From Microbacterium wangchenii (GTDB lineage Bacteria; Actinomycetota; Actinomycetes; Actinomycetales; Microbacteriaceae), in contig NZ_CP038266.1 in NCBI RefSeq assembly GCF_004564355.1, positions 3,286,001 to 3,350,000 on the forward strand: a stretch of 64,000 bases of DNA, given 5' to 3'. Both the position numbers and the translations under genes were made by a program. This document shows positions 1 through 39,758 of this stretch, in pieces. The first letter of the stretch is position 1, and every line of letters starts with the position of its first letter. The notes beneath the pieces were generated by a model. That model was not told where the DNA came from, did no database searches, and was given only the letters and a program-made list of their open reading frames with translations.

Positions 1-1520
<1,520 letters not shown>

Positions 1521-14679: not shown

Positions 14680-15006
14680 GTGGGCACCAACCGACGGTAC
14701 GCCGCGCACTTCGATCGCCTCATGGATGAGCGCATCATTCAACGCGTGGCCGACACGGCGGGCCCCCTGCAGACCCTCTCTTCCGAGGAGCTCGAGCTGG
14801 AGCGTGAGCCGTTCACGCGTGATCCCCAACCCAAACCGGTCCGCGCGTGGGTGCGCTTCGGTGACACACCCGTACTCGTTGATGCCGAGGCGTGCAGCTG
14901 GACGAGACACGCCGCCGCGATCCGCTTCACGGTCGCCGGCCGTGAGTACAAGACGTGGGTGTGGGCCTCTGCCGTGCGCGAGGCTCCGCAACGGCCTTCG
15001 CCCTAG
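14680..15006 (+). CDS. unknown 108-residue protein in SOS-box locus
   Basis: GTG 14680 is chosen because GAGGGAGG lies 6 bases upstream; an earlier GTG at 14650 has no ribosome site. The protein begins with a basic helix (TNRRYAAHFDRLMDERI) and ends with a beta-rich part that includes WVRFGDTPVLVDAEACSWT and KTWVWASAV. No family is recognised. It is divergent from the DUF6504-like gene over a LexA box. Its stop overlaps that of the minus-strand zinc-ribbon gene. Confidence 0.6.
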   Translation: MGTNRRYAAHFDRLMDERIIQRVADTAGPLQTLSSEELELEREPFTRDPQPKPVRAWVRFGDTPVLVDAEACSWTRHAAAIRFTVAGREYKTWVWASAVREAPQRPSP

Positions 15007-15131
15007 ATCCCGATGAGAACGACCTGACAAGTGGCGCACCAGTAGGCGTGGCCAGCATGTCTGAGCACGGTTCCGCACTCTGGACACCGCGGCTGGGCGG
15101 CCACCTCGAAACCGTCCTCCTCGATCGACAT
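15003..15131 (-). CDS. 42-residue zinc-ribbon protein
   Basis: From ATG 15131 the minus strand encodes a tiny protein with two knuckles, CPECG and CATC, separated by 13 residues (RCPECGTVLRHAGHAYWCATC). That spacing is a standard zinc ribbon. It ends VVLIGI at a stop overlapping the convergent gene's stop. Such orphan ribbons occur widely in actinobacteria; the role is unknown. No strong ribosome site, so the start is moderate. Confidence 0.6.
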   Translation of the reverse strand: MSIEEDGFEVAAQPRCPECGTVLRHAGHAYWCATCQVVLIGI

Positions 15132-15260
15132 GCGTCCGGAGCGTAGCCGAAGGGCGACCGTCGCTCCAGTGGCTCTCGCTCGCGAGAAGCGCCCAGAACG
15201 CCTCGTTGCGACGCAGGTCGTCAGCGAAGCGGCCCCGCGAGCCTCGAGGGGGCGATCGCC

Positions 15261-16457
15261 TCAGCCAGCAGGAGACTTGGATGCATCGACCTCTAAGTGT
15301 GCGTCAGGCTCGGCGAGCCACTCGCGAACGCGGCGCTTCCATCGCTCCGGATCCGAGTTCCAACACAGGGTGTGATCCGCGGAGAACATCTCGAGTTCGA
15401 CCGTCTCGGGCTGCTTTCCGACGAGCTGACGGGCAGCGGCTGGCGGAGACGAGCTGTCATGGGTTCCATGAAGGATCAGCGTCGGAAGCGGAACCGGTCC
15501 CGACGCGGACCGAGAGACCCAATCGAAGCGCCTTAGCCGTATCGGTGCGCGCAACCCTACGGCTCGCGCCAACGGCTTGCATTCCAACCATGGACGCGCG
15601 AGCGCGCCAGTCTCAGAAGGCAAGCCAACTCGGGAGCAGTTGGCGGCGATGGTCGTGTACCAGTCCAGGACCGGTGAGTCGAGGATGAGCCGGTCCAGGA
15701 CGCCTGTGAATTCATGGTCCATGGCGATTTGCAGCGCGATCGCCGCACCCATGGACCATCCGAAGAGCACGATCCGTTCGGCACCGTGCGCGACGGCGTA
15801 CCTCACCGCAGCGCGAACGTCCTCCGCCTCACTATCTCCGAGAGTCGAGCGACCCGCTCCTACGGTCGGGCCCTCGCCGTCGTTGCGGTAGGTGACGACG
15901 AGCGAAACGAAGCCGACTTCGGTAGCGACCTGCACACCCCGGAGTGTGCCCGCTCGAGGGCTGGCGAGTCCGTGGACGTGGATCGCCCAGTCGCTCCCCC
16001 GGGTTTCCGGCGGGCGGACGAGCCATGCCGGCGCAGGCCCGGCGGGCGTCTCTATGACCACTCCCTCCACGTCGAGACCCGCGTCCGCCGGGTCGCGATA
16101 GTAGATGCCACTCCACGATGCGCGCCGCCCCACACCCAGTGCGCCCATGGGATCGACCGAACCCACCAGGCGCGTCACGGTTCGAGAATCCCGGGCGACG
16201 ACAGGGCCGAGCCGGACCCATCCGCCGCCCTCGAGCCAGAGGTTATAGACGCCGGGCGTCGCCGTCGCGGAGGTGCGGTCGAGGACGACTGCATCGTGGT
16301 CACCGTGCCGAACGATCCCCCATATTGAGAGGTTGTAGACCCTCCCGGCCGCAGGCGCCGTGAGTCGTCGGGCGATCACGAAACCGAGACTCACGGTCCC
16401 GGCGAGGATGGCTGCGGCAAGCCCGCTCACGGCCGCGGCAGCCGCGCGGAGTCTCAA
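15261..16457 (-). CDS. membrane-anchored alpha/beta hydrolase
   Basis: 398 residues from TTG 16457, which overlaps the preceding stop (TTGA). An N-terminal helix (VSGLAAAILAGTVSLGFVIA) suggests membrane anchoring, with the enzyme outside or held at the membrane. The catalytic triad is readable: Ser235 in GWSMGA, Asp334 in HGTHDSSSP, His362 in ADHTLCW. HVHG around residue 160 is the oxyanion region. The N-terminal ~130 residues before the hydrolase fold are beta-rich and of unknown role. It is the last gene of an operon with a membrane protein, an ImmA/IrrE protease and an Xre regulator. The substrate is unknown. Confidence 0.85.
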   Translation of the reverse strand: MRLRAAAAAVSGLAAAILAGTVSLGFVIARRLTAPAAGRVYNLSIWGIVRHGDHDAVVLDRTSATATPGVYNLWLEGGGWVRLGPVVARDSRTVTRLVGSVDPMGALGVGRRASWSGIYYRDPADAGLDVEGVVIETPAGPAPAWLVRPPETRGSDWAIHVHGLASPRAGTLRGVQVATEVGFVSLVVTYRNDGEGPTVGAGRSTLGDSEAEDVRAAVRYAVAHGAERIVLFGWSMGAAIALQIAMDHEFTGVLDRLILDSPVLDWYTTIAANCSRVGLPSETGALARPWLECKPLARAVGLRAPIRLRRFDWVSRSASGPVPLPTLILHGTHDSSSPPAAARQLVGKQPETVELEMFSADHTLCWNSDPERWKRRVREWLAEPDAHLEVDASKSPAG

Positions 16458-17461
16458 CGTATGACTCTCGCCGGCACACCCTGACTCGGCGCGTATACGC
16501 CTGAGCCGCTTCCGAGCAGGTGCGCCTCAGCTGCCTCAACAAGCAATCGCTCCGCTTCGCTCAGCGCAAACGAGACGCGCGGATCAACCGCGGCATCCCG
16601 GATCTCGACGAGCTGCCGGTGAAGCCGCGTCTCAGCGTCCGCGGCACTGAAGCCCGCCGCGTTCTGCTGGCTCATCCCAGGCCGGACGCGGTTCGCTCTC
16701 TGCCAGATCGGCGCTGTCTGAGAGACGAGCTCGCTCGTCGCACGTGCCCGGGAACGAGCACGCAGCCAGCGAATCGCCGGCTGACTGGCCAAACCGACGC
16801 AGAGAAAGACGAACGTCGACAGCACAAGCGGACTGTACGCAGCGCCCAGCCTGAGCATCAACGAGACGTTGCCCGAGAGGTGCGCGATATCCATCGCGAC
16901 GACCACTGCCACCAGACCGAGGCCCAGCGCACTACCGATCAAGAGGGAGACCGCCGGCAACCGATCGACTCCTTCGCTGAGCCGGACCTGCCGCGTCGCG
17001 ACCGCGGCCATCGCCGTCAGAACGATTCCGTCGTACGCAAACTGGATCACCGAATACGCGGCCGCGGCCGGCTGGGCGCCATAGTCCAGCATGAACGTCG
17101 TTGTCGTCACGCCTCGGTCGATGAGGGCGAACGCGACAACGGCTGACACGAGCGCAACCACGAGCACCGTTCGCCCTAGTGCAAGACGCACGATGCGCGG
17201 GCGGTACTCCGTGGCCTTGGCAATTGCCCGCCCCAAGAAGAAGATGCCGACCATGAGCGCGAGGTCCGCCGCCAACGTCACGAGGTTCCCGCCACCGAGC
17301 AGAAGATCAACGGGGCGGTACACGCTGTCGGTGCTCAGCGTCATCGCCACGGCGATGGTCAACGCCGACCACAGGATGCTGCGGTCGGTGCGGCCACGTC
17401 GCAAGATGAGCAGGCTTGCGACGAGCACCCACAGCAACGCGGAGACGATGAGCTGCGTCAT
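16454..17461 (-). CDS. seven-helix membrane protein, MAB_1171c/DUF6545-like
   Basis: 335 residues: about seven membrane helices in residues 1-230, then a soluble tail of ~100 residues (QTAPIWQRANRVRP; LHRQLVEIRDAAVDPR; ALSEAERLLVEAAEAH). This layout and the tail match the DUF6545 proteins annotated as MAB_1171c-like transporters, known to sit beside Xre regulators and ImmA/IrrE proteases in actinobacteria (family knowledge). ATG overlaps the protease stop, and its stop overlaps the hydrolase start. Transport has not been shown for the family, to my knowledge. Confidence 0.8.
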   Translation of the reverse strand: MTQLIVSALLWVLVASLLILRRGRTDRSILWSALTIAVAMTLSTDSVYRPVDLLLGGGNLVTLAADLALMVGIFFLGRAIAKATEYRPRIVRLALGRTVLVVALVSAVVAFALIDRGVTTTTFMLDYGAQPAAAAYSVIQFAYDGIVLTAMAAVATRQVRLSEGVDRLPAVSLLIGSALGLGLVAVVVAMDIAHLSGNVSLMLRLGAAYSPLVLSTFVFLCVGLASQPAIRWLRARSRARATSELVSQTAPIWQRANRVRPGMSQQNAAGFSAADAETRLHRQLVEIRDAAVDPRVSFALSEAERLLVEAAEAHLLGSGSGVYAPSQGVPARVIR

Positions 17462-17922
17462 CCGAAGATCTCCAAGAACTTCGACTCGTGCATCACCGAC
17501 CCCCGGATGGCAGCAGCGAGGTGATCAGCCAGAGTCTCGGCGGCGATCTCATCCGCGGTGACGAGATCCTGCCGTCCCAGCAGACGCCGTCGAGTGGACG
17601 GCGCGATGTCTGGAAGCAAAGCGTCGCGGGCATCAGCTTCGTCGTCGGCGCCGTGGTCGAGAATGATGTGGGCTAGCTCGTGCAAGACGAACTGCTGCCG
17701 ATGCAGAGTCGACTCAGTGCGCGCGTGGAGCACGATGTCCTCAGCGTCGGTCATCAGCCACATCGCGCAGATACCTTCTCGGTCGCTGAGTTCGGCGAGC
17801 TCGACAATCCGCAGCGGTCGGCCGCGCCGACGCTCCACTGCGCCCACGAGCTGACCGAGGGAGAAATGATCTCCGAGCCCCAGCTCCTTTAGCGCCACTG
17901 GCGGGTGAGTTGCGGCCTTCAT
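17458..17922 (-). CDS. ImmA/IrrE-family zinc protease
   Basis: 154 residues with the zinc-protease motif HELAH (81-85) in RQQFVLHELAHIILDH, followed by a later acidic helix (ADEIAAETLADHLAAAIR) that can give the third ligand. ImmA of ICEBs1 and IrrE of Deinococcus cleave partner Xre-type repressors to induce their regulons. The gene follows its Xre partner by 6 bases, with GAAGGGAAG in the end of that gene as ribosome site. Cleavage of the upstream regulator is the expected job (inference). Confidence 0.88.
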   Translation of the reverse strand: MKAATHPPVALKELGLGDHFSLGQLVGAVERRRGRPLRIVELAELSDREGICAMWLMTDAEDIVLHARTESTLHRQQFVLHELAHIILDHGADDEADARDALLPDIAPSTRRRLLGRQDLVTADEIAAETLADHLAAAIRGSVMHESKFLEIFG

Positions 17923-17928
17923 AGTCCG

Positions 17929-18405
17929 TCACTTCCCTTCGTGGCCATCGGACGTGACCACCTTCCGCGGGCCGCGCGCCGCCGGCTCATCGCTAGATTC
18001 GTTCTCGAGGAATCGCGTGATTGCCCGGAGCGCCTCAGGAGAGATGTCGCCTAGGGTGCGCGCTGCATATGACTTGACCTTCGCGACACGCATGGACCGC
18101 ACGAGATCGAGTTGCGCGGCGATCTTGGCGGGCATCGACGCTTCGGGGCTGCCCGCGAGGAAGGCGGCATCGACCTCGAAGAACTCTGCCAACGCTTCAT
18201 ACAGCGCCTGATCCTGCACGTAACGATGACCGTTCACCATGTACGTCCACCGGGACCGGGAGAGATTGACACCGCGCGCTCGCAGGAACGCGGCGATCTG
18301 GGAGTACGTGGGTTCCTCGCCGGTCTGGGCGATCACGACATCCATCAACAGGCGAATGCGTTTAGCTAAATCGTCCGCGGCGGCTTTGCTATCGTCCTCT
18401 GTCAC
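17929..18405 (-). CDS. Xre-family regulator paired with ImmA/IrrE protease
   Basis: About 158 residues from GTG 18405 (AAGGAC upstream); the frame is open to 18468, with ATG 18444 as another choice. An HTH lies in residues ~30-62 (TYSQIAAFLRARGVNLSRSRW, then YMVNGHRY), followed by an alpha-helical C-terminal part that probably dimerises and is the likely protease target. It leads the operon Xre - protease - membrane protein - hydrolase. Three related operators upstream fit self-repression. Confidence 0.85.
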   Translation of the reverse strand: MTEDDSKAAADDLAKRIRLLMDVVIAQTGEEPTYSQIAAFLRARGVNLSRSRWTYMVNGHRYVQDQALYEALAEFFEVDAAFLAGSPEASMPAKIAAQLDLVRSMRVAKVKSYAARTLGDISPEALRAITRFLENESSDEPAARGPRKVVTSDGHEGK

Positions 18406-18468
18406 GCGCTTAACCGTCCTTCGCCTCGGGCTGGGAACGCACATCGTCGGGCCTGCCCGGAGACCCAC

Positions 18469-18572
18469 TCGAGGGTGCTCAAGCTACGCGTTGGGCATGC
18501 TCAAATCAACCATTGCGCCGAGGTGCCTACGAGTGTCAGCATGAACGCCTGACATGTTTGAGCATGCTCAAA
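18469..18572. promoter_or_regulatory. three TTGAGCATGCTCAA operators before the Xre operon
   Basis: A perfect 16-bp palindrome TTTGAGCATGCTCAAA lies at 18557-18572; TTGGGCATGCTCAA at 18491-18504 differs at one base of the 14-bp core; TCGAGGGTGCTCAA at 18469-18482 matches 11 of 14. The first and second sites in this order from the gene are 22 bp apart (two helical turns), the third 67 bp further. They are the probable binding sites of the adjacent Xre regulator. Confidence 0.78.
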
Positions 18573-18644
18573 CCGGTGATCCCCGCGACGCCACGGAGGC
18601 GAAAAGAGGTCGAGATGTCGAACTCCGCGATCACCCCACCATGC

Positions 18645-18667
18645 GTGACCGGACACCCCGCGGTCAC
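18645..18667. terminator. short hairpin after the winged-helix gene
   Basis: GTGACCG and CGGTCAC form a 7-bp stem around GACACCCCG, five bases beyond the stop of the minus-strand winged-helix gene. There is no T-run, so this is a weak terminator candidate. Confidence 0.4.
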
Positions 18668-18671
18668 TCGA

Positions 18672-18989
18672 CTAGAACTCCCCGAGCACCTGCTCCAGCC
18701 GCATGACCATCTCGGTCACCTGTGCGTCGTCGACGGTGTAGCGCACGCGTTGACCCCGCAAAGCGACGTCGCGAGGCGGGTCGGCAATGATCAGCCCAGC
18801 ATCGAGCAGCTTCTCGAGCCCATTCGCGATGGTCATCTTGGGAAGGTCGAGGGCTTCGGCAATCTCAGAACGAGTGAGCCCAGGCTCCTTCCGCAGGAGA
18901 CCAATGATCGTCGCCTGCATGACGTTCCCGAGCGCGTTGATGGGATCCTCCGCGTAATCACTGTTCGCGGGCCGGGCGTAACGAGGCAC
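18672..18989 (-). CDS. winged-helix regulator (ArsR/MarR-like)
   Basis: 105 residues. The HTH reads LLRKEPGLTRSEIAEALDLPKMTIANGLEKLLDAGLI, with a beta wing (DPPRDVALRGQRVRYTVD) and a C-terminal helix. It lacks Cys, so metal sensing is unlikely. It is divergent from the transfer operon; an AACCG-N7-CGGTT dyad lies in between. It is a good candidate for the switch of conjugative transfer genes (inference). Confidence 0.82.
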   Translation of the reverse strand: MPRYARPANSDYAEDPINALGNVMQATIIGLLRKEPGLTRSEIAEALDLPKMTIANGLEKLLDAGLIIADPPRDVALRGQRVRYTVDDAQVTEMVMRLEQVLGEF

Positions 18990-19050
18990 GAGCCCAGTCT
19001 GGCGGATCGCCCCATCCCGGTCCAGGCGAGGGATTGAAAAAATGCTTCAC

Positions 19051-19067
19051 AACCGCAGTGTACGGTT
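19051..19067. promoter_or_regulatory. dyad operator over the transfer-operon promoter
   Basis: AACCGCAGTGTACGGTT is a dyad (5+7+5). It overlaps a plausible promoter for the plus-strand transfer genes (CTTCAC, about 16 bases, TATATG). It lies between the divergent winged-helix gene and the transfer operon. Confidence 0.5.
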
Positions 19068-19166
19068 ATATGCTTCCCTCATGTCAAGCGAAGCGACTCG
19101 ATGCGATGTGGCCCACGCGGGCGCGTCGTCGCGTGCGGGCAGCTTCACCCGTGCCGCCGGACCAGG

Positions 19167-19919
19167 ATGGGCAAGCTGATGACCACGGCGCGGCACACTC
19201 AGCGGAGTCGAGGGCTTGTATGGGCCATCGTGGGCGGAGCAGTGCTCCTCGTCGCCATTCTGGCTATCGTCCTTGCCGCCCTCTTCTCCCGCGGCACAGC
19301 ACCAGCTCCTGTCGAGACGACCGCCGCGAATTCGGCGCCCACCGCCGACCCCACCACCCCCGTGAGGGGAGACGTCGTTGACACATCCGTCGTCGACAAG
19401 GGCTGGGTTCCCGAGCCGATCACGACGGATGCCGAGACCTACGTGCGCGCCGCGCTGGAGGCGGCATCCACCTTCGACACGCAACTGAGCACGCGCGCCG
19501 AGTGGCTCACGTATCTCGACACATGGTTCACGCCCGACACTCGCTACACCTCCGAGGACGATCGCGCCTCCGATATGCAGACGTCGCAACTCGAGCTGCG
19601 GCAGGGTGTGGTGCTCCCCGAGGCGGAGTGGGACTCGCTGGCGAACGAGGACGGCCGCGTCACCGCGGTCGCCGGCGAGGTCGAATTCACTGACGTGCCG
19701 AATGACGCTTCCGGGGGCATGAGCATCGGCGCAGCCGACGTGGTGCTGACGTACACCCGCTCCGATGGAAGTGGTGGCGACGCGACGTCGTATGACGAAA
19801 CGGTGCGGGTGAGTGTCCAGGTCCTGTGTGGCGCCGGTTCCGTCCCGGCACCAGGCACGGCACAGCAGGAAGGTGACTGCAAGGTCGTCCGCTACTTCTC
19901 GGGGTCATTGGAGCCCTGA
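19167..19919 (+). CDS. bitopic transfer-apparatus protein, first gene of the transfer operon
   Basis: About 250 residues: a short cytoplasmic N-terminus, one membrane helix (GLVWAIVGGAVLLVAILAIVLAALF), then a Thr/Pro/Ala linker and a soluble outside domain of ~190 residues. Topology and position in front of the other transfer genes recall VirB8/TcpC-type scaffold proteins, but no family motif is seen. ATG 19167 and ATG 19179 are both possible. Two Cys near the end (VLCGAGS, GDCKVV) may form a disulfide. The next gene follows after one base. Confidence 0.65.
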   Translation: MGKLMTTARHTQRSRGLVWAIVGGAVLLVAILAIVLAALFSRGTAPAPVETTAANSAPTADPTTPVRGDVVDTSVVDKGWVPEPITTDAETYVRAALEAASTFDTQLSTRAEWLTYLDTWFTPDTRYTSEDDRASDMQTSQLELRQGVVLPEAEWDSLANEDGRVTAVAGEVEFTDVPNDASGGMSIGAADVVLTYTRSDGSGGDATSYDETVRVSVQVLCGAGSVPAPGTAQQEGDCKVVRYFSGSLEP

Positions 19920-19920
19920 C

Positions 19921-20532
19921 ATGGGAGCCCCGGTCGCCGCGGCAGCAGCACTCGCGAATACGAGGGCCGGGCGCAGGATCGCGATCGGGGTTCTTCTCTT
20001 CTTCACGCTCGTCGGCGGAATGCTGCTGACGCCGCTGATCGCAATCCCGTTCGCGATAAGTGGCGAGCAGGTTGCAACCGAAACCAAGGCCCCGGCCGAT
20101 CCGGTTGCTAACGGGGACTGGGGTTACCCACTCGCCGGCGGCTACTCGAAGGGCCGTGGCTTCGGATACAACCCCGTAGTCGGCTGCAGCTACTGCTCGA
20201 CCAACCACAAGGGTTACGACATGGCGCAGGGTTGCGGCGCCGCGATCCACGCCGCGGGGCCCGGTCGCATCATCACCGCAGGTTCTTTCTACGGCTGGGG
20301 AAACACCGTGCGCGTCGACCACGGTGGCGGACTGGTGACGCTCTACGGGCACATGCAGTGGGGATCGCTCCGCGTCTCCGTCGGTGACGCCGTCGCTGCT
20401 GGGACTGCGCTCGGCGCCGAAGGAAACACGGGCCGCTCCTTCGGGTGCCACCTGCACTACGAGGTGCAACGGGACGGCGTTCCTATCGACCCTCAACCGT
20501 TCATGGCCGCGTTCGGCCTTCCGCTCAGGTGA
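19921..20532 (+). CDS. M23-family (LytM) cell-wall peptidase of the transfer system
   Basis: 203 residues: an N-terminal membrane helix (IAIGVLLFFTLVGGMLLTPLIAI), then an M23 peptidase domain with zinc ligands in HKGYDMA and HLHYEV plus LYGHM. Such enzymes cleave peptidoglycan cross-links and locally open the wall for a Gram-positive type IV secretion channel. Between helix and domain the conserved-looking GYNPVVGCSYC supplies Cys residues. ATG 19921 lies one base after the preceding stop. Confidence 0.9.
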   Translation: MGAPVAAAAALANTRAGRRIAIGVLLFFTLVGGMLLTPLIAIPFAISGEQVATETKAPADPVANGDWGYPLAGGYSKGRGFGYNPVVGCSYCSTNHKGYDMAQGCGAAIHAAGPGRIITAGSFYGWGNTVRVDHGGGLVTLYGHMQWGSLRVSVGDAVAAGTALGAEGNTGRSFGCHLHYEVQRDGVPIDPQPFMAAFGLPLR

Positions 20533-20551
20533 TGCACCGAAGGAGAAAACT

Positions 20552-20851
20552 ATGCGATACGTACTCATAGCGCCGAGCGACGTCGACATCCCCAACGTCG
20601 AGCCGGACTTCTCGGCGCCCTTCTTCGCTGGATTTCAAGTCATCGCCTCATACATCCTTGCGGGCGCGATGATCGTGGTTCTGATCATGCTGATCATCGC
20701 CGGGGCATCGCTGGCATTCCGCGGCCTCGCCTCGGACCGCATGCGTACCTGGGCGGGCGAGAACATCCTCTGGATCTTCATCGCCGCCGCCGTGCTCGGC
20801 GCCGCGAGCGGTCTGTTCCAATGGTTCGTCAACTTCGACTTCGGGTTCTGA
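20552..20851 (+). CDS. small two-helix transfer protein, VirB2-like position
   Basis: 99 residues with two helices (AGFQVIASYILAGAMIVVLIMLIIAGASLAF and ENILWIFIAAAVLGAASGLFQW in outline) separated by a short basic loop. AAGGAG lies 6 bases before ATG. Small two-helix proteins just before the VirB6-like gene commonly hold the VirB2/VirB3 place in actinobacterial systems; no motif proves it here. No signal peptide cleavage site is evident. Confidence 0.65.
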   Translation: MRYVLIAPSDVDIPNVEPDFSAPFFAGFQVIASYILAGAMIVVLIMLIIAGASLAFRGLASDRMRTWAGENILWIFIAAAVLGAASGLFQWFVNFDFGF

Positions 20852-22365
20852 TGGGAACCCTGCGGTCGCTGCTGGTGGGCGCGGCGGTCGGGCTCGGCCT
20901 GGTCCTCGCCGCGCTGACCCCGGCGAGCGCCGCCGGGTCGTCCGTCGATGTCGCGCCCGCCGCAGCGAACGCGGCATCTGTCAGTGGCGAGCCATGGTCC
21001 TCCCCCGCGTATCCCGTCGACTGCTCCCGCGTCGACTCGCAAGTCACGTGCACGCCGCAGAACACGGCCGACGTCAAGCCGCAGCAGTGCTTCATTAACG
21101 TCCTTGTCGGCGGAGCGAAGGCGACCGTGTGCACGACCGACGAGTCGCACATATCGGCCATCAAGACGAGCGGCGGCAAGCCCCTCCTGGTCGAGTACGG
21201 ATGTTCCCTTGGCGACGTCGTCTGCGTCACGTTCGAGAATGCGGGCCGCGGCTTGGCGCTCTCGGCAACCTCGATGATGTTCGCCGTGGCACAGAACATG
21301 CGCTTCGACACCTCGTCACTTCTGTGGACCGCCGCGACGGACGAGTGGTCGTTCTGGCAGTGGGCGATCCTCGCTGTCCTCTTCGGCGCCATGGTGTGGG
21401 CGCTCGCTGCCGCGATCGTCTCGGGGGATCGCGCCGAGCTCGTCGGCGCCCTGGTGCGCAGCTTCATCGCGGTGCCGGCCACGGCGATCACGCTGTGGGC
21501 CACGGGGCACCTGCTCAACGCCGTCGATGACCTCACCTGGTATGTCTTGAACCGCGACGGCGCCGGCGGCCTCTTTGCGACCCTGCAATCGGTGATGTGG
21601 GCTGGCGGACAAGCGAACTACTTCTTCGCATTCGTCATCCACGGCTTGTTGATGCTCGGCATGCTCCTGCTCATGCTGGTGTTCGCTTTCCGCAACATCG
21701 TCCTGGCGGCGCTGATCGCGGTGGCCCCGATCGCATGGATGCTGTACCCCGCCCGCGCCGTCGGCCCACAGTGGGTCGTTCGGTATGTTTCCGCGGTCGT
21801 TGTGTTGTTGCTCACCGGCCCCCTGACGGTCGGGTTCGTCACCCTCATCATCAACGGCCTCGCCGGCATAAAGACGATCTGGGATCCGCAGTCGTGGCCC
21901 TTGCTGATCGGGCTGGCACTCGTCGCCTTCGCACCGTTCGCAGTGTTCGGGCTCTTCAGCTTTGTGGGCGCTGTCGCCGCGGACGCGGTCGGCTCGAGCG
22001 TCGGGTCCCATGCGGGGCGTGCCGCCTCGGGTGCAGCTCGAGCGGCGTCGCGCATCCCCAGCCGGATCACCGCTTCGCCGGCTGGCGCTGCCTCACGTGC
22101 ACCCCGTCCGGGATCATCCAGCGCGACCGCCAGCAGCGCGAAAGGCGGAGCATCACGCCGCCCCGCAGGACCCGCCCGTTCTGCGGCGACCCCCTCACGT
22201 GCGCCCAGTTCGCCTGCTCCCGCTCCTGCCGGGTCCTCGTCGTCGCCTCCGCCCTCGTCACAGCCGCCAAGCTCCAGCTCACCGGCGACGTCCCCGCGCG
22301 ACGCGCGGGGCGCGCAACCGAGTGCCGGCGGCCCACCCCGATCCCGCACCGAGAGGACAGCATGA
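20851..22365 (+). CDS. VirB6/TrbL-like polytopic transfer protein
   Basis: 504 residues. A signal peptide (LLVGAAVGLGLVLAALTPASA) is followed by a Cys-containing outside domain (to ~145), about six membrane helices (165-385) and a long low-complexity cytoplasmic tail rich in Ser, Pro and Ala. This shape is that of VirB6/TrbL proteins of the inner-membrane channel. ATG 20851 shares its A with the preceding TGA, and the stop overlaps the next gene, so translation is coupled. Confidence 0.82.
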   Translation: MGTLRSLLVGAAVGLGLVLAALTPASAAGSSVDVAPAAANAASVSGEPWSSPAYPVDCSRVDSQVTCTPQNTADVKPQQCFINVLVGGAKATVCTTDESHISAIKTSGGKPLLVEYGCSLGDVVCVTFENAGRGLALSATSMMFAVAQNMRFDTSSLLWTAATDEWSFWQWAILAVLFGAMVWALAAAIVSGDRAELVGALVRSFIAVPATAITLWATGHLLNAVDDLTWYVLNRDGAGGLFATLQSVMWAGGQANYFFAFVIHGLLMLGMLLLMLVFAFRNIVLAALIAVAPIAWMLYPARAVGPQWVVRYVSAVVVLLLTGPLTVGFVTLIINGLAGIKTIWDPQSWPLLIGLALVAFAPFAVFGLFSFVGAVAADAVGSSVGSHAGRAASGAARAASRIPSRITASPAGAASRAPRPGSSSATASSAKGGASRRPAGPARSAATPSRAPSSPAPAPAGSSSSPPPSSQPPSSSSPATSPRDARGAQPSAGGPPRSRTERTA

Positions 22366-23855
22366 TGACGACTCCGGACCTGGCCCGCCCCGTGCGACTA
22401 CCCCGCCGGTCACAGCAAGGCGTTGTGATGGGCATGGATGCGTGGCAATTGACGTGCCTCACCGCGGCAGGAATCGTCGTGCTCATCAGCGTCAACCGCT
22501 TCGGTCCGCCGGGGCTTCTCTACGGCGCGCCGATCTATCTCCCGGTTGGCGTGTTCGCTTTCGTCACCGTGCACGGTGAGTCCGCACCCCGCCAGGCCGC
22601 GCTTTGGTTCATGAAGCAGGTACGCCACGCCAGCGGAGCGACCAAGCAGATCTTCCGACCGGAACATGTGCAGCTCGCCGGAACGCTCAACCTCCCCGGA
22701 ATCCGGGCATCGGTCCAGATCTGGCAGGTCGAGGACGTCGCGTGCGTCTACAACCCCCACGATCGTTCGGCATCTCTCACGGCAGAGGTGGAAGTGCAGG
22801 GGTTCCTGATGAAGGACGTCCCCGAGCGCTACGACCTCGCACAGCAGTGGTCACCCGTTCTCGCATCCTTCACGCAGCGCCCGGGCATCAAACGAGCCGT
22901 GCTTCAAGAACGCACCATCCCCACCACCATCCGGGCGGCCCGCGACCACTACGAATCTGTCGCCCGTCGCCGCGGGCTGGACACCGATTCGCCGCTTGCA
23001 AGGAACTACGACGAGGTCATGGACAAGTCCGAACCGTTCGCCGTGTCGCACCGCAACTACCTCACCTTCACGCTGGACCTCATCGCGCTCGGTCCGCAAC
23101 TGAAGGCGCTCGGCGGTGGGGCGGATGCCGTGAAGGCCCTCGCTTACCTGGAGGCACGCAACCTCGCGGATGCGCTGAGCGCGGCGCGAATCAGCGTGCG
23201 ACGGTGGCTCACAGCTCGCGACGTCGCGGCGCTTTCGCGCGTGGGGTTTGATCCCGAGTCCGCCGCCAACGTGCAGAACCGCGACGCGACCCGCATCGGC
23301 GTCGACCCCATCGCAATCGGCCCCATGTACATGGAAGAGCCCCGCGGCAAGAACGGCATCGTCTACACCGACTCCGGTGTGCACACCACCATGTGGATCC
23401 ACGAGTGGCCGCGCTCAGACACCGCGGTCGGCTTCGTCGAGCCGATCGTGTTCGCGCGGATGCCGTCTACGGGCGAGGCGATCACCCACATCCTGTCGAT
23501 AGTCCTCACCCCCGTCTCCGTGAAGAAGGCGATGCGCCGCATTGAGGACGACAAGAAGGTGTGGCGTGGCAACGAACGTCTACGCGCGAAGCGGGGCGTT
23601 GACGGCTCGGCAGCAGATGCCGCCGATTGGGATGCACTCGAACGCCAGGAGGAGGAGATCGTCGCCGGGCACGGGGAGTTCCGCTACGGCGCGTACCTCA
23701 CCGTCAGTGCACCCGACGAGGAGAAGCTCGACGAGGCGATCGCCGGCATGCGCAACGCCCTCGCGCGGGCAGGTATGGAGCCGCAGATCCTCTATTGCCA
23801 GCAGGCCGAGGCCCTCATGGTCAATGTCCTCCCCATCGGGCTGGGGATGAAGTGA
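22362..23855 (+). CDS. SCO6880-family transfer protein
   Basis: 497 residues. Two N-terminal helices (LTCLTAAGIVVLISV; YGAPIYLPVGVFAFVTVHG) resemble PrgI/VirB3, followed by a soluble part like the N-terminal domain of VirB4 (VEVQGFLMKDVPERYDLAQ; NYLTFTLDLIAL; GEAITHILSIVLTPVSVKKA). This is the architecture of the SCO6880 family, which pairs with a separate ATPase gene in actinobacterial elements. ATG 22362 with GAGAGGAC upstream overlaps the preceding stop. Confidence 0.85.
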   Translation: MMTTPDLARPVRLPRRSQQGVVMGMDAWQLTCLTAAGIVVLISVNRFGPPGLLYGAPIYLPVGVFAFVTVHGESAPRQAALWFMKQVRHASGATKQIFRPEHVQLAGTLNLPGIRASVQIWQVEDVACVYNPHDRSASLTAEVEVQGFLMKDVPERYDLAQQWSPVLASFTQRPGIKRAVLQERTIPTTIRAARDHYESVARRRGLDTDSPLARNYDEVMDKSEPFAVSHRNYLTFTLDLIALGPQLKALGGGADAVKALAYLEARNLADALSAARISVRRWLTARDVAALSRVGFDPESAANVQNRDATRIGVDPIAIGPMYMEEPRGKNGIVYTDSGVHTTMWIHEWPRSDTAVGFVEPIVFARMPSTGEAITHILSIVLTPVSVKKAMRRIEDDKKVWRGNERLRAKRGVDGSAADAADWDALERQEEEIVAGHGEFRYGAYLTVSAPDEEKLDEAIAGMRNALARAGMEPQILYCQQAEALMVNVLPIGLGMK

Positions 23856-25456
23856 TGGTCCGCCGTGTCGCCATCTTCGAGGCCGGTACTCTCACCAAGC
23901 GCGAGAAGCGACAATTGCGCCAGGAGGTCGCACGGGCCGAACGCGACGAGCGTCCGAGGAAGACCCGTCGGCGAGACCGCGCGCTCCCTGAAGCCGCCGT
24001 TCCCGGCCCGTTCGGCCCCGGGCTCACCGAGCACGGCTACTGGAACCTTGCCCGCCCCAACGTCCCGGCCCACCAGGCGACCTCAAGACAGATTGCAGGG
24101 ATCTACCCCTTCGTCGCGGATGCCGGCCTCGGGCATCGCGGTCCGATCCTGGGAGTCGATCTCAACGCCGACGCACTCTGGCACTTCTCACCGTGGGAGG
24201 CGTACGCCGATCAGACCGACCGCGGCACGTTCTCAACCAACGTGCTCGTGCTCGGCTCATACCGTGCCGGCAAGTCCGCCACGGTCAAGACGCTCGTCAC
24301 GCGCTCGCTGGCCTTCGGCCACCAGGCCGTCGTTCCTTCCGATCCGAAAGGCGAGTGGGTGACGGTTGCTGAGGCGGTTCCGGGTGGCGTCGTCATCCGC
24401 ATCGGCGGCGGTAACACCGCGCGCCTGAACCCTCTGGACCGCGGACCTCGTCGCGGAGATGCGGACGACGAGCAGCACGAGAAGATGGTCCGCCAGCGCC
24501 GGATTACGACGCTCGTGTCGCTGGTGGAGATGGCGCTCGGCGCCACTCGGCTCACCGCCGTGGAGCACGCCGCGATTCATGAAGCGCTTGAGCGCAGCAT
24601 CCGCCTCACTTCCGACCGTCCGACGCTACGCAGCGTCTACGAGCAGCTCGGCGCGATCATCGAGGACGCCGGAACCGACTTCCGCCTGGCCGACGGCGCA
24701 GTGCAGCCGCGCTTCGTCCTGCACCGATTCGTAGAGGGCGACCTGTCTGGGCTCTTCGAGGAGGAGTCGACGGTCGCATTCGACGCGGATGCGTCGATCG
24801 TCGTCGTAGACACGAGCGAGCTCTTCTCACGCAGCGAGCTCGTCGCCCAGCTCACCCAGGTGTGCACGACCGCGTGGATCCAGGCGGTCGTCTCCGACCG
24901 GTCAGCCAAGCGCACGCGCTATCTGATCCGCGAAGAGGGATGGCGGGACATGACGTCGCTCGCCGCGCTGCAGATGTTCCAGCAGTGGCTCAAACTGTCG
25001 CGGCACTACGGCATCAGCAACATCGTGATCCTGCACAAGATGGGCGACCTGGATGCCGTGGGCGACGCCGACTCGAAGGAACGCAACCTCGCGTACTCGA
25101 TCGTGGGCGACATCGAGAACAAGTTCATCTTCCGCACCAACCACCAAGAGGCAGCGGCCCTCCGCGAGCGCCTGAACCTCCCGGCGAGCCACGTCGAAGA
25201 CGCGCGCAGGCTGCGCATGGGCGTCTTCCTGGCCTACGTCGGGCAGTACGCATACGCCGTGGACTGCTTCGCGACGTCCACCGCGTGGGAGTACGACCTC
25301 TTCGCAACTGACAGCGCTCTCCAAGCCGCTGTAGACGACCGCACACTCCAACTCGTCGACGCGGGAGAGCTCGACCGGTTGTGGCCAGACCGCTACCCGA
25401 CCGACGACAGTCTGGACGGCTGGTTGTCACCGACATCGAAGGAGACACCGCTATGA
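23855..25456 (+). CDS. VirB4-like conjugation ATPase
   Basis: 533 residues. A basic N-terminal part is followed by the ATPase with Walker A GSYRAGKS (134-141) and VVVDTSELFSRSELVAQLTQ. In the expected Walker B area the sequence reads YLIREEGWRDM where VirB4 proteins usually have DEAW, so an Asp is replaced by Glu. HYGISNIVILHKMGDL and FIFRTNHQEA are further conserved blocks. It powers substrate movement and pilus or channel assembly at the membrane. It overlaps both neighbours. Confidence 0.86.
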   Translation: MVRRVAIFEAGTLTKREKRQLRQEVARAERDERPRKTRRRDRALPEAAVPGPFGPGLTEHGYWNLARPNVPAHQATSRQIAGIYPFVADAGLGHRGPILGVDLNADALWHFSPWEAYADQTDRGTFSTNVLVLGSYRAGKSATVKTLVTRSLAFGHQAVVPSDPKGEWVTVAEAVPGGVVIRIGGGNTARLNPLDRGPRRGDADDEQHEKMVRQRRITTLVSLVEMALGATRLTAVEHAAIHEALERSIRLTSDRPTLRSVYEQLGAIIEDAGTDFRLADGAVQPRFVLHRFVEGDLSGLFEEESTVAFDADASIVVVDTSELFSRSELVAQLTQVCTTAWIQAVVSDRSAKRTRYLIREEGWRDMTSLAALQMFQQWLKLSRHYGISNIVILHKMGDLDAVGDADSKERNLAYSIVGDIENKFIFRTNHQEAAALRERLNLPASHVEDARRLRMGVFLAYVGQYAYAVDCFATSTAWEYDLFATDSALQAAVDDRTLQLVDAGELDRLWPDRYPTDDSLDGWLSPTSKETPL

Positions 25457-26718
25457 GTGTCGAAACCACGCCGCGCGCGCACGCCACGGTCGCCGGCGCC
25501 ACTGCTGTGTTCACAACGCCGGACGGACTGGTCGAGCCGCTCGCGGCATCGCCGAACGACGACATCCGGCAGACGATCGTGCAACGCGCAGCGACTGAAG
25601 CCCGGCGAGCTGGCGTCCCCGTCCAGCTCATCACGACCGGTGACCGTGGAGAGCATCACCTCCTGATCGCCGCGGACGGCACGATCGCGGCCGCTGCGGC
25701 GCCGGCGTCTACCGAAGACCTGGCCGACCCGGGCTCATCGCAAGAGGGAAGGGAGGTGAGCACCGAAGCTCCGGGGCACGAGCCGCTTCGCAATCGCCGC
25801 GCTCCGGAGCCTCTCTCTCGCCCGTCGTTCATCGGCACCGACTCGGCGACCGGAGCGAAAGCGATGGGATGGCGAGGACTCTTCGCGCGGCTCGGACTTG
25901 GACCTTCCCCCACCGCGCTCGAGCGACGCGCGAACGAACGCGAGGTCTCGCAACAGTGGCCAGGATGTCGCGCGATCGCCGTCGCGAACGGCAAGGGCGG
26001 CGTCGGTAAGACGATGAGCACGGCCATGCTCGCCGCAGTGTTCGGCCGCTATGGCGGCGGGAACGTGCTCGCGTGGGACAACAATGACACGCGCGGCACA
26101 CTCGGCTGGCGCACCGAGGCAGGCAGATACGACACGACGATCAAAGACCTGCTGTCTGCCGCGCCCGATCTCCTTGCACCCAGCGCGGGCATCTCGGACA
26201 TCGCCCGATTCGTGCACCACCAGTCCGTCGATCGATACGACGTGCTGCGCTCGAACCCCGAACTCCTCGCCGTGCACCAACGCATCCTGACGGCCGAGTT
26301 CGATCTATTGATGCGGGTCGCCGCCCGGTATTACCGCGTCGTTATCTTCGACTCCGGCAACGACGAGTCGGCGGAGCGATGGCTTCGAATGGTCGACTCT
26401 GCGGACCAGCTCGTCCTGCCCACTCTCGCGATCCCAGAATCGGCAGAGTCGGCCGCGCTCCTGCTGGATGCTCTCCGCGAGCGAGACGAGCGGTCGCGAG
26501 GGCTCGCTGAAAACGCGGTCGTCGTGATCACGGAGGCCGAACCGAACCCGCGGGACGCGGCCCGCATCGCCGACGGGTTCTCAGGCCACGTGCGCGCCGT
26601 GGAGCGCATCCCGTTCGACCCGGCACTCAAGTCAGGCCCGCTTCGCCTGGACAACCTGCGCGGCCCCACGCGCGACGCCTGGATCCGTGTCGCGGCAGCA
26701 GCGGCGCGGGGGCTGTGA
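25453..26718 (+). CDS. ParA/MinD-like ATPase in the transfer operon
   Basis: 421 residues: an N-terminal region of ~170 residues of unknown fold, then a deviant Walker A motif NGKGGVGKT (179-187), WDNNDTRG, and VVIFDSGNDES as switch II. ParA/MinD ATPases dimerise on DNA or membrane to position cargo. Similar ATPases are frequent in transfer operons, where they may recruit the relaxosome to the channel (inference). Position between VirB4-like and VirD4-like genes supports that role rather than plasmid partition; no ParB gene is seen. Confidence 0.85.
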   Translation: MSVETTPRAHATVAGATAVFTTPDGLVEPLAASPNDDIRQTIVQRAATEARRAGVPVQLITTGDRGEHHLLIAADGTIAAAAAPASTEDLADPGSSQEGREVSTEAPGHEPLRNRRAPEPLSRPSFIGTDSATGAKAMGWRGLFARLGLGPSPTALERRANEREVSQQWPGCRAIAVANGKGGVGKTMSTAMLAAVFGRYGGGNVLAWDNNDTRGTLGWRTEAGRYDTTIKDLLSAAPDLLAPSAGISDIARFVHHQSVDRYDVLRSNPELLAVHQRILTAEFDLLMRVAARYYRVVIFDSGNDESAERWLRMVDSADQLVLPTLAIPESAESAALLLDALRERDERSRGLAENAVVVITEAEPNPRDAARIADGFSGHVRAVERIPFDPALKSGPLRLDNLRGPTRDAWIRVAAAAARGL

Positions 26719-26728
26719 GAGGTCGACC

Positions 26729-28561
26729 ATGGGTGCGGCGTTCGGCCGGATCACTGCAATCGTCGTCGCTATCGCCGTGGTTCTGAGTCTCGCGTTCGGG
26801 TTCCTGGCGGAGTCGATCACCATACTCGCCTGCGGTGCACGGCCGCAGGCAGACAGCATGTTCTCCGGGCTTTGGCTGGCGCTCGCGGGTGACGCGGCCG
26901 CCTATTCAGCGCCGGACGGATGCGCGTTGCCGGTGGCGGGTATCCGGATCGTCGACGCGGTTGCCGCGATCCTCGTCCTCGCCCTCATGCTCACCGGACT
27001 CGTCGCCTATCGGCGTTACAAGCACTCGGACAAGGCGTTCGTCGCCGATCTCCGCTCTCGCGCAGGGTTCGCCGAAGCATCCGAGATCCGCCGGCACCTC
27101 TCGGGCAGGGCTGTCCTGCGGCGTGCGCGTCAACTCCGGCCCGACATCGCGCACCCAAGGCCGACCGACGTGGGGTGGCGCGTCGGCCGGTCGCGAGCTA
27201 CCGACGTCTTCGTCTCTATCGAGGACTCGGTGGCGCTCGAGGGACCTCCACGGTCGGGCAAGGGATACCGCGTGTTGATCTCCGCGATCCTCGACTGGTC
27301 TGGGCCGTTGATCACAACATCGACGACCAACGACAACCTCACCGCGACGTTGCGGATGCGCGAACGACGCGGAAAGGTGCACGTCTTCGACCCGCAAGGG
27401 CTCTCCGGCGTGCGGCATCCGCTCCGCGTCTCCCCCATCGCGGGCTGCGAGGACCCGCTGGTTGCCATGCAACGTGGTAACGCGATCATCACCGGCACCG
27501 CCCTCGGATCGTCGGCCACGAACGGTGAGTGGGCTCAAGCCTCTGGCGTCGTGCTCGGTCGGCTCCTGCACGCGGCTGCCGTGGGCGGTCGCCCGATTGA
27601 CGACCTCTACAACTGGGGAACGAGTCCCGTGCTCGCACGGAAGTCCGCGGTGTCGATCCTGCGAGCCGATGGCGCACCGGGCTGGGGCGACAACCTCGAG
27701 GCCACGCTCGCGGGCGATGACAAGCTGGTGTCGTCGATCTGGTTCGGCGTCCAGGGGGCGGTCGCTCCGCTCGCTGTGCCGAAGATCCGCGAAGCGCTGA
27801 CGCCGCGGCCAGGAGCGCCGGCCTTCGACCCGCTGGAGTTCCTCGCGGATGCAAACACGCTCTACCTCGTGGGGTCGGCGTCGGGGGCGTCAGCCATGGG
27901 CGGTTTCCTCGGCGCACTCCTCGACGACATCGTGGAGGTTGCTCGTATGCAGGCTCTCGCCTCCCCGGGCTCGAGACTCCAGCATCCGCTAGGGCTGATC
28001 CTCGACGAGATCGCGAACATGTTCCGGTGGGCGAACATGCCCCGAATCATGGCCGACGGCGGCGGGCGGGGCATCTGCACGTTCGTGGTGCTCCAGGCGC
28101 TGTCCCAGGCCGAGACCTCGTGGTCGCGCGCCGAGGCCGACACCATCTGGGCAGCCGCGACTGCGAAGGTTCTCCTGGGCGGCGCGTCGCACGTGAATCA
28201 CCTGCGCGACGTCGAGGCTCTGCTCGGATCGCGTCAGACCAAGCGGACCCAGCGTTCGTGGTCCACGCGCGAATCCGGTCACTCGACGAGCGAGCAGCAC
28301 GAGCGGTTGCCTCTGATGTCAGTGGACGAGATCCGCCGCATGCCGCAGAACCTCGGCCTGCTCGCTTACCGGAATCGTCGCGGCGTTCTGCTCGACCTTG
28401 CTGGTTGGGATGCGCGACGCGACGCGCACGAGATTCAGGCCGGCAAACGCGCGACAGAACGGGACCAGCAAATCGTGTTCACCGAGGCCCGTCGACCGAC
28501 CCAAGCTCCCGTCGCCCCGCCGCGGTCGGAGTCAGAGTCCGAGGCGGTGAAGGAGGAATGA
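26729..28561 (+). CDS. VirD4/TraG-type coupling protein
   Basis: 610 residues. Two membrane helices (ITAIVVAIAVVLSLAFGFLA and DAVAAILVLALMLTGLVAY) bracket a short outside loop. The ATPase has Walker A GPPRSGKG (172-179) and Walker B LGLILDEIANM, plus the TraG-type block GICTFVVLQALSQAETSW. Coupling proteins bring the relaxase-DNA complex to the channel. GAGAGGTC precedes ATG 26729. The tail is acidic and ends EEE-like, just before the HNH gene. Confidence 0.92.
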   Translation: MGAAFGRITAIVVAIAVVLSLAFGFLAESITILACGARPQADSMFSGLWLALAGDAAAYSAPDGCALPVAGIRIVDAVAAILVLALMLTGLVAYRRYKHSDKAFVADLRSRAGFAEASEIRRHLSGRAVLRRARQLRPDIAHPRPTDVGWRVGRSRATDVFVSIEDSVALEGPPRSGKGYRVLISAILDWSGPLITTSTTNDNLTATLRMRERRGKVHVFDPQGLSGVRHPLRVSPIAGCEDPLVAMQRGNAIITGTALGSSATNGEWAQASGVVLGRLLHAAAVGGRPIDDLYNWGTSPVLARKSAVSILRADGAPGWGDNLEATLAGDDKLVSSIWFGVQGAVAPLAVPKIREALTPRPGAPAFDPLEFLADANTLYLVGSASGASAMGGFLGALLDDIVEVARMQALASPGSRLQHPLGLILDEIANMFRWANMPRIMADGGGRGICTFVVLQALSQAETSWSRAEADTIWAAATAKVLLGGASHVNHLRDVEALLGSRQTKRTQRSWSTRESGHSTSEQHERLPLMSVDEIRRMPQNLGLLAYRNRRGVLLDLAGWDARRDAHEIQAGKRATERDQQIVFTEARRPTQAPVAPPRSESESEAVKEE

Positions 28562-34006: not shown

Positions 34007-34609
34007 GTGTCTGACGTGGTGAGCGCCTACTCGCGTAGAGCAGCCGAGTACAGCGAGCTACTCGGTTCGATGGCGGCGATGCACCACGCGGACGTGCATC
34101 TGATCACCTCCTGGGCGAGGCAATGCGACGGGATCGTGCTCGACGCCGGCTGCGGGCCCGGACACTGGACAGGGCATCTCGCAGCGGCAGGGGTCGACGC
34201 TCGCGGCATCGACCAGGTCCCATCCTTCATCGATCACGCCCGCAGGGTTCATCCCGGGACGCCGTTCGAGGTCGGCGACATCGACGCGATGCCGTACCCG
34301 AACGCCGAGTTTGGAGGAGTGCTCGCCTGGTATTCACTCATCCACCACGATCCCGACAACATCGCCCGGCCGTTGGCGGAGTTCGCGCGAGCCCTTCGCC
34401 CCGGCGGCAGCTTGCTGGTCGGATTCTTCCTCGGTGGGACGATCGAAGAGTTCGATCATGCCGTCGTCAGGGCATTCCGCTGGCCCTCCGAAGCCCTACG
34501 CGGCCGCCTCGTCGACGCGGGCTTCGAGATCCTCGAGACCCACACGCGAACTGGATCGCTTGCGTCGTCGCCGAAGCCGCACGCTGCGATCATCGCGCGC
34601 CGGCTTTAG
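34007..34609 (+). CDS. class I SAM-dependent methyltransferase
   Basis: 200 residues. Motif I VLDAGCGPGHWTGHL (44-58), an acidic loop (ARGIDQVPSF), the post-II block DAMPYPNAEFGGVLAWYSLIHH and FARALRPGGSLLVGFF define the Methyltransf_11/25 fold. The substrate is not deducible. GTG 34007 begins a helix YSRRAAEYSELLGSM that is repeated, diverged and cut off, at 36425-36540. Likely a stand-alone gene. Confidence 0.9.
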   Translation: MSDVVSAYSRRAAEYSELLGSMAAMHHADVHLITSWARQCDGIVLDAGCGPGHWTGHLAAAGVDARGIDQVPSFIDHARRVHPGTPFEVGDIDAMPYPNAEFGGVLAWYSLIHHDPDNIARPLAEFARALRPGGSLLVGFFLGGTIEEFDHAVVRAFRWPSEALRGRLVDAGFEILETHTRTGSLASSPKPHAAIIARRL

Positions 34610-36424: not shown

Positions 36425-36540
36425 ATGACATCGGGCGTGGGAGCCGCGTACTCGACTCGAGCAGCGGAGTATGTGGAGAAGATCGGCTCGATCGCGACGA
36501 TGCACCCGCCGGACCTCGCGCTGATCACATCGTGGGCCGC
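36425..36540 (+). pseudogene. methyltransferase N-terminal fragment
   Basis: The first ~38 residues (GVGAAYSTRAAEYVEKIGS, then IATMHPPDLALITSWA) align clearly with the start of the methyltransferase at 34007 (VVSAYSRRAAEYSELLGS; MAAMHHADVHLITSWA). The match stops before the SAM-binding motif, and the frame runs to 36607 without resemblance. It is a diverged paralogue truncated about 130 bases before the CBASS operon, and may mark the point where that operon was inserted. Confidence 0.7.
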
Positions 36541-36670
36541 TCCTCGCCGGCAGGCGGACGGACGACACCGACTGGCGACTCTGGTGCAGCGCGCCCGCAC
36601 GCACTGATGTCCGGCACAGGTCGTACATTGAGCCTTCATAGCTTTACTCCGACCCGAGGAGACCAGCCGC

Positions 36671-39261: not shown

Positions 39262-39758
39262 CCGATGAGTCCGTCGTGTATATGTCTGAATCGGTTCTGG
39301 AGCGGCTGCGGGTCAGCGCGGCCCGGTCACACCCCCTCGAAACCGGCGGCATCCTGATTGGCGTGACAGCAGGCGACTACCCATGGGTGACCGATGTGAG
39401 AGAGTTCGATTCGCCAGGACGGGGCCCGGCCAGGTTCATCCTCCCCCGCGGCGTCACTCAGCGCGCGGTTCGCGACGCTCGTCGACTCGATGCGCGACTC
39501 GGCTATCTCGGCGACTGGCACTCCCATCCCGCCGACGTTCCGGCGAGCCGCACCGACCTCCTCACCACTCACAAGACCGCTCTGGTGTTACGCCGCCAAG
39601 TCCTGTTGCTCGTTGCTCGGCGTCGGGGCAAGGCGTATGCGCTGGACCTGTCGATGGCGCGCGGCACCCGCATCGAGCGCTGTCGCATCATTCCGACCGG
39701 TGGCCTTCCTCCGCTTGCACATCAGACCGACACAATCTCTCAAGGCGAGGCATCATGA
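39258..39758 (+). CDS. cap3: CBASS Cap3, JAMM isopeptidase
   Basis: 166 residues. The JAMM zinc site is readable: Glu28 (HPLETGGILIG), His88 and His90 (GDWHSHP), Ser97 and Asp100 (ASRTD). Cap3 removes the CD-NTase from Cap2-made conjugates and can limit or reset the system. Length is usual for Cap3. ATG overlaps the Cap2 stop. Confidence 0.93.
   Translation: MTDESVVYMSESVLERLRVSAARSHPLETGGILIGVTAGDYPWVTDVREFDSPGRGPARFILPRGVTQRAVRDARRLDARLGYLGDWHSHPADVPASRTDLLTTHKTALVLRRQVLLLVARRRGKAYALDLSMARGTRIERCRIIPTGGLPPLAHQTDTISQGEAS

Follow-up and report, generated by a model that had tools for sequence, protein, structure and literature searches.

A four-gene operon in the genome of Microbacterium wangchenii is probably the on/off switch of conjugative elements with a type IV secretion system (T4SS), both integrative and conjugative elements (ICEs) and plasmids, in Micrococcales and related actinobacteria. 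The operon encodes an Xre-type regulator, an ImmA/IrrE-type protease, a DUF6545-like membrane protein and an alpha/beta hydrolase, and lies on an ICE within a 64,000-nucleotide stretch of contig NZ_CP038266.1 (positions 3,286,001 to 3,350,000), here termed the window, to which coordinates refer. The switch is supported because the gene order is kept at 76 of 80 related loci (of 141 relatives in a profile scan of genome contigs, the 80 most similar to the window membrane protein, a set biased to close relatives), because 74 of these loci have an operator array and 74 a conjugation operon, and because nine of the 11 plasmids that carry a relative of the membrane protein were typed as conjugative. 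Further support comes from a divergent promoter signature in 33 of 37 arrays, from the precedent of ICEBs1 and from the divergence pattern of the membrane protein and hydrolase. These data are best read as a repressor/protease switch like that of ICEBs1, equipped with a different sensor arm.

In the proposed mechanism, Xre would bind an array of TTGAGCATGCTCAA operators placed over two divergent promoters and would silence its own operon as well as the leading-region/transfer operon, and ImmA, made from the same operon, would remove Xre, presumably by cleavage. The seven-helix membrane protein would receive an extracellular cue and pass it via its cytoplasmic tail to ImmA, with the esterase-like hydrolase making, altering or destroying the cue, on a presumed substrate and a presumed side of the membrane. 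A more specific form of this model is put forward tentatively and is possible rather than probable, namely a cell-to-cell signalling switch in which a receptor resembling a G protein-coupled receptor in its seven helices would sit on the donor surface and respond to a small ester or acylated signal set by the membrane esterase of the element itself, and would relay it, through regulated proteolysis of an EspR-like repressor by ImmA, to a double promoter like that of phage lambda. Were this signalling reading true, it would describe a receptor-to-protease pathway with neither a kinase nor an imported peptide.

The four genes of the operon

The genes occupy the minus strand in the order Xre, ImmA, DUF6545-like protein and hydrolase, with a 6-base gap followed by two 4-base overlaps, the tight packing that an earlier note on this DNA had described. 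The EspR-like Xre-type repressor (17929-18468, minus strand) has an uncertain GTG start, its relatives being mostly about 150-167 amino acids long. Its match to the Pfam family HTH_31 is weak, and phmmer aligned it with four EspR chain sequences over about 115 residues (E 1e-4 to 2e-4). After the 6-base gap the Xre gene is directly followed by that of an ImmA/IrrE-type zinc protease with HExxH (17458-17922, minus strand), which is the arrangement of the ICEBs1 type. The protease matches Peptidase_M78 below gathering (18.3 bits against 22, E 0.002), and HExxH together with a downstream Glu was aligned in every ImmA row read.

The membrane protein gene (16454-17461, minus strand) overlaps that of ImmA by 4 bases. 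Its product falls under the cut-offs of both DUF6545 (PF20182; 19.9 against 24.4 bits, Pfam gathering) and MAB_1171c_fam (NF042915; 72.6 against 100 bits), and PF20182 is carried by many of its close relatives. Fold and topology are predictions, with seven helices in an AlphaFold2 model of pLDDT 88, an N-out/C-in orientation derived from loop charges and a putative cytoplasmic tail bearing a conserved LHRxxVEIRD-type motif. A transporter role for this protein was considered and set aside; the paper found on MAB_1171c describes a knockout study, not a transport assay (PMC8707978).

The last gene (15261-16457, minus strand) starts with TTG in a 4-base overlap and encodes an alpha/beta hydrolase with an N-terminal helix. 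Four alpha/beta hydrolase families, including Abhydrolase_1 and Hydrolase_4, match above Pfam gathering, and the product has both the fold and the Ser-Asp-His triad of that superfamily. Ser234, Asp333 and His361 (numbering of the 397-residue product) are invariant in 48 hydrolase rows including the window, which bears out the intact triad reported previously.

Conservation of the four-gene unit

Gene content, gene order, operators, adjacent conjugation genes and catalytic residues were read directly from sequence, with gene presence at the 80 loci taken as a tblastn match, which is not proof of an intact gene. The order Xre-ImmA-DUF6545-hydrolase on one strand was found at 76 loci by this measure. 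The exceptions are two loci at a contig end with no hydrolase match (L148 and L160) and two loci with no Xre match and a partial ImmA match (L109 and L139); hydrolase matches at L109 and L145 are also partial. The hydrolase was thus matched at 78 of 80 loci, with both misses at contig ends. The earlier note had suggested asking whether the hydrolase stays linked and whether operators are conserved upstream of related loci, and both proved to be so (for the operators at 74 of the 80 loci), so that neither of the outcomes that it named as signs of a chance assembly, a hydrolase rarely present or operators not conserved, occurred among these loci.

Within the genus, in a set that overlaps the 80 loci, the membrane protein was found in 22 of 149 genomes at 23 places, and at 21 of these the hydrolase adjoins a full-length membrane protein, one of the other two (G123) ending at a contig end. 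The remaining place (G106, L080) is a remnant with a hydrolase and a truncated membrane protein, and lies close to relatives of those chromosomal genes that border the window ICE. All 19 genus hydrolase matches of at least 46% identity adjoin the membrane protein. At E 1e-50 a hydrolase match is present in 146 of the 149 genomes, mostly as one copy away from the unit, and the window genome has both an operon-type and a chromosomal hydrolase. A single branch with 100/100 support separates operon-type (18 rows) from chromosomal (12 rows) hydrolases. Two genomes with the four-gene unit, G050 and G140, also have a chromosomal hydrolase paralog about 9-11 kb from it.

Pairwise divergence was compared in 53 dereplicated loci, the Xre row of L062 being left out. 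Divergence was most alike for the membrane protein and hydrolase (rho 0.87, against 0.73-0.84 for other pairs); since the four genes co-reside, a high rho is expected for all pairs and the ranking alone is informative. The same pair ranked highest when plasmids and chromosomal versions were excluded (rho 0.74 in 47 loci, others 0.44-0.67). In the wider phylum, 19 of 198 genomes matched MAB_1171c at E 0.001, giving 29 short loci that reach at most 1.5 kb on each side of the membrane protein gene; ImmA was matched at 16 of these, the window genome included, and weak hydrolase matches on the opposite strand were found at two (L168 and L183).

One of the two loci with no Xre match (L109) is a degenerate copy on a 956-kb contig of Candidatus Leucobacter sulfamidivorax. 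Conjugation genes together with sadA have been described for this organism on a 74-kb contig (PMC6868719), and given the different contigs L109 is not the published sadA locus.

Operators and predicted promoters

The operator consensus is TTGAGCATGCTCAA, and across the genome of 3.83 Mb copies with one mismatch or none occur at this operon only, as O1 (perfect, 18558-18571) and O3 (one mismatch, 18491-18504), with none for a reversed control pattern. The earlier note had counted three operators, of which these two stand; the third, O4 (18469-18482), is degenerate with three mismatches, making three a generous figure. At up to three mismatches the window has five matches against 1.22 expected, and because one of 100 shuffles also reached five the degenerate O4 alone proves little. 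The perfect palindrome reported there is present, with a length of 18 bp (18556-18573) and not 16.

At least one operator with at most one mismatch lies upstream of Xre in 74 of the 80 loci, and O1 is perfect in 68 of these 74 arrays. Most relatives have four sites, the array O1-(43..47)-O2-(22/23)-O3-(22/23)-O4 being found in 55 of 74. As to the six loci lacking a near-perfect operator, L095 and L158 have only sites with two mismatches, L109 and L139 are the loci with no Xre, L113 begins at a contig end, and no site is seen at L159. Of the 74 arrays 63 have TTGAGCATGCGCAA as their O2, letter for letter, none of these being among the seven loci with what is termed below a type I conjugation operon.

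Read on the opposite strand, O2 gives TTGCGC, followed 17 or 18 bp on by an extended -10 element (TGTTAGAAC, TGGTAAAAC, TGCTAGACC and alike) that takes up the space from O2 to O1. Of 37 dereplicated arrays, among them that of the window, 33 keep TTGCGC, and a TG stands at the 17/18-bp position in 33 of these 33 against 3.5 expected from shuffles, a position picked post hoc like all the promoter patterns, which were drawn up after viewing the aligned arrays. In the window the O2 of relatives has been lost and TTGCGC and TG are kept, forming a predicted divergent promoter, PL (18513-18542, plus strand; TTGCGC, 18 bp, extended -10 TGT CAGCAT). The promoter predicted for the four-gene operon (18481-18509, minus strand; TTGATT, 17 bp, TAGCTT) holds O3 within its spacer, and the same -35/-10 pattern with O3 in the spacer recurs in 32 of the 37 dereplicated arrays. 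As judged from sequence, one operator array seems to cover two predicted promoters arranged back to back. An array over two divergent promoters compares with OR of phage lambda.

Conjugation genes beside the unit

Across the operator array from the unit a conjugation operon was found at 74 of the 80 loci, 67 of them classed by our own rule as type II and seven as type I, the type of the window. Of the other six, three have short flanks, two (L095 and L109) have one or two T4SS-type matches and one (L139) has none. Type II operons begin with an ArdC-like gene (ArdcN and M78 domains), after which come genes for a Prim-Pol primase, a DUF2637 protein, a product that weakly matches ParB_N, an M23 peptidase and a product that weakly matches TrbL. 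The opposite-strand conjugation gene closest to the array is an ArdC-like one in 52 of the 74 arrays, a Prim-Pol gene in 14 and a VirB8-like gene in seven, while one array has none, and in 65 of the 66 arrays with ArdC-like or Prim-Pol the frame limit of that gene lies within about 210 bp of O1. In type II elements the operators lie over a predicted divergent promoter facing ArdC-like or Prim-Pol, a layout seen in 66 of 74 arrays; the type I arrangement of the window has an intervening MarR-like gene. ArdC of the plasmid R388 is required in recipients (PMC7213743), and such a need would fit, we infer, with expression of the operon on entry before the repressor accumulates. In the genus set four loci are type I (L059-L062), fourteen are type II (L063-L076), three are neither (L077-L079) and L080 is the remnant.

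The unit occurs on conjugative elements of many actinobacterial genera, including Arthrobacter plasmids from tobacco and nicotine-exposed sources. Apart from the nine plasmids typed as conjugative, one of the 11 is mobilizable and one non-mobilizable. In five plasmids that were read the order is ImmA-membrane protein-hydrolase-Xre, such that Xre has moved and all four genes are kept, with a palindrome upstream of ImmA that has the same CATG centre and other outer bases (one mismatch in L058). A further related element (L152) has cargo downstream of the hydrolase, at 14842-19221, with PADLOC matches to a type IIG restriction enzyme and to HEC-05.

The integrative and conjugative element of the window

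The ICE is about 45.7 kb long (5584-51321) and lies between 17-bp direct repeats at 5584 and 51305, the right repeat lying at the 3' end of a tRNA-Ser (GCT). A tyrosine integrase is likewise encoded at the right end, and the element further has genes for a TrwC-type relaxase, an M23 peptidase, a ParA-type ATPase and a VirD4 coupling protein. Among the conjugation genes (19101-28561, plus strand) the M23, ParA-type and VirD4 proteins match Pfam above gathering and VirB8 below it (E 0.004). Two further proteins gave no Pfam match at E 0.001, and their labels as VirB6-like and VirB4-like are our own, given from their size and position and from a similarity of 24-25% to ATPase genes of plasmids.

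Beside the array lies a gene for a small MarR/ArsR-like regulator (18672-18989, minus strand; HTH_20, HTH_24, MarR_2, MarR and HTH_5 above gathering). A search of 11 type I sequences (seven distinct loci) found it in every one, at 50-95% identity. At the start of the PL transcript, antisense to this gene, an open reading frame (ORF) with a Shine-Dalgarno-like sequence and ATG (18615-19037, plus strand) is open through the whole MarR-like gene, in the same frame and with its start signals kept, in eight of eight type I loci including the window. It was rejected as the main gene of this region since conservation is higher in the MarR frame (82-95% against 54-61% in closer loci, and 50% against 32% in the most distant). 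One idea, drawn from this layout, is that PL may act on the T4SS through antisense transcription of the MarR-like gene.

The ICE also carries genes of a cyclic oligonucleotide-based antiphage signalling system (CBASS; 36671-41092), comprising a cyclase, an E1-E2 protein and a TIR-SAVED effector with strong PADLOC matches, in agreement with the earlier description of the element. Elsewhere on the stretch, a methyltransferase-like gene (34007-34609) and a shorter ORF whose beginning closely resembles that of the gene (36425-36607) are perhaps a partial duplication, and a protein with a Zeta-toxin domain is encoded on the ICE at 45892-46893.

Weighing of alternative explanations

Several observations count against the proposed switch. 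In the window the MarR-like gene sits on the operon strand between O1 and the T4SS genes, which makes direct control of the transfer genes by the array less clear; the VirB8-like ORF begins 530 bp beyond O1 (361-775 bp in seven type I relatives, as frame limits), and a separate promoter-like site for the T4SS (19046-19074) aligns in eight loci, being weakest in L104. Because operators with at most one mismatch occur in the genome only at this operon, the excision genes are not direct targets via this motif. Three genus loci (L077, L078 and L079 in G050, G140 and G044) have the four genes with no T4SS matches and no TTGAGC operators within the 11-20 kb read. Among the 29 short phylum loci, which extend no more than 1.5 kb to either side, a same-strand hydrolase is present in the window genome only; since distant MAB_1171c relatives lack it within that reach, the pairing with the hydrolase seems particular to this lineage, for the most part on conjugative elements. 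The topology of the hydrolase is ambiguous, and Foldseek returned no match for the membrane protein at E 0.001, with VIA-align rows showing helix arrangement only. Part of this evidence would suit an entry-exclusion or envelope-remodelling device, in which the membrane protein and hydrolase would be the outputs on arrival in a new host, Xre and ImmA would only set the level of output and the transfer genes would be controlled separately. The confinement of the operator to this operon, the separate promoter-like site and MarR-like regulator serving the type I T4SS, and the three genus loci that keep the four genes lacking T4SS matches are in keeping with such a device, which is nonetheless judged unlikely, given that 66 of 74 arrays have ArdC-like or Prim-Pol as their closest conjugation gene on the opposite strand with the divergent promoter signature kept, and that the predicted seven-helix N-out/C-in layout with its conserved cytoplasmic motif better suits a sensor.

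The earlier note had drawn the four genes as a circuit of repressor, protease, membrane component and effector-like enzyme that could be a stress- or phage-triggered system. The first three parts of that circuit are plausible, but a defence role found no support and is very unlikely: the CBASS genes on the ICE and the cargo with PADLOC matches on L152 point towards it, but the constant neighbours of the unit are conjugation genes, Xre, the membrane protein and the hydrolase have no PADLOC match, and the membrane protein had no match in 50,697 phage records. ImmA matched three M78-type PADLOC models (capP, RmrA) weakly, at E 0.001 to 0.02. The window CBASS genes as queries gave no match in the 80 loci, which is weak evidence of absence because the flanks extend at most 10 kb and the window CBASS is 18 kb away. 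An addiction unit of the toxin-antitoxin kind, in which Xre would be the antitoxin to a toxic membrane protein or hydrolase, is highly improbable. Predicted toxin-antitoxin pairs do include Xre with COG2856 proteases, but the same source also names ImmA/ImmR and a regulatory cascade as a likely role (PMC2701414); the divergent layout better fits a switch, and a hydrolase match in 146 of 149 genus genomes implies that the enzyme family is not toxic as such. That the hydrolase might be a passenger gene unrelated to the regulator trio is suggested by family members elsewhere in the phylum lacking a same-strand hydrolase, but its match at 78 of 80 loci with the two misses at contig ends, the fully supported separation of operon-type from chromosomal hydrolases and a divergence most similar to that of the membrane protein leave this extremely improbable.

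Comparison with known systems

Literature searches found no account of how such elements are switched on. If the proposed switch is true, one operon explains when these elements move, it would be the first proposed role for a DUF6545 protein and for the Xre-ImmA-membrane protein trio, and it would present a bacterial seven-helix receptor signalling through a protease.

The membrane protein resembles MAB_1171c (NF042915) and DUF6545 (PF20182) proteins over most of its length and differs from them in falling below both cut-offs, in its hydrolase partner and in its context on conjugative elements. Knockout of MAB_1171c reduced biofilm to about half (PMC8707978). Xre is similar to EspR, of which structures have been solved, over about 115 residues (phmmer E 1e-4), and its compact operator array lies at one place in the genome. 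EspR, in contrast, binds widely. With the actinomycete integrative and conjugative elements (AICEs) of the pSAM2 type, the unit shares a setting on actinobacterial integrative elements and small XRE proteins, there found near pra; those elements differ in being controlled by Pra/KorSA, and the term ImmA does not occur in the main text of the paper that describes them (PMC3218068). The unit itself usually sits beside T4SS genes. FtsK-like transfer is the defining trait of AICEs.

The closest comparison is with ICEBs1 of Bacillus subtilis. The repressor and transfer promoters of ICEBs1 are divergent, and a comparable layout is predicted here for type II elements. ICEBs1 likewise has an Xre-type repressor that keeps the element silent and an ImmA-type protease, and RapI stimulates ImmA to cleave the repressor ImmR such that transfer is derepressed (PMC6540685, PMC9632896). 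The unit described here differs in its EspR-like repressor, in its four-site array over two predicted promoters and in that the operon has two further fixed members, a seven-helix membrane protein and a hydrolase bearing an N-terminal helix. It is regarded as a switch of the ICEBs1 kind in which a receptor-like membrane protein and an esterase-like enzyme would replace a peptide-sensing activator or act in addition to one.

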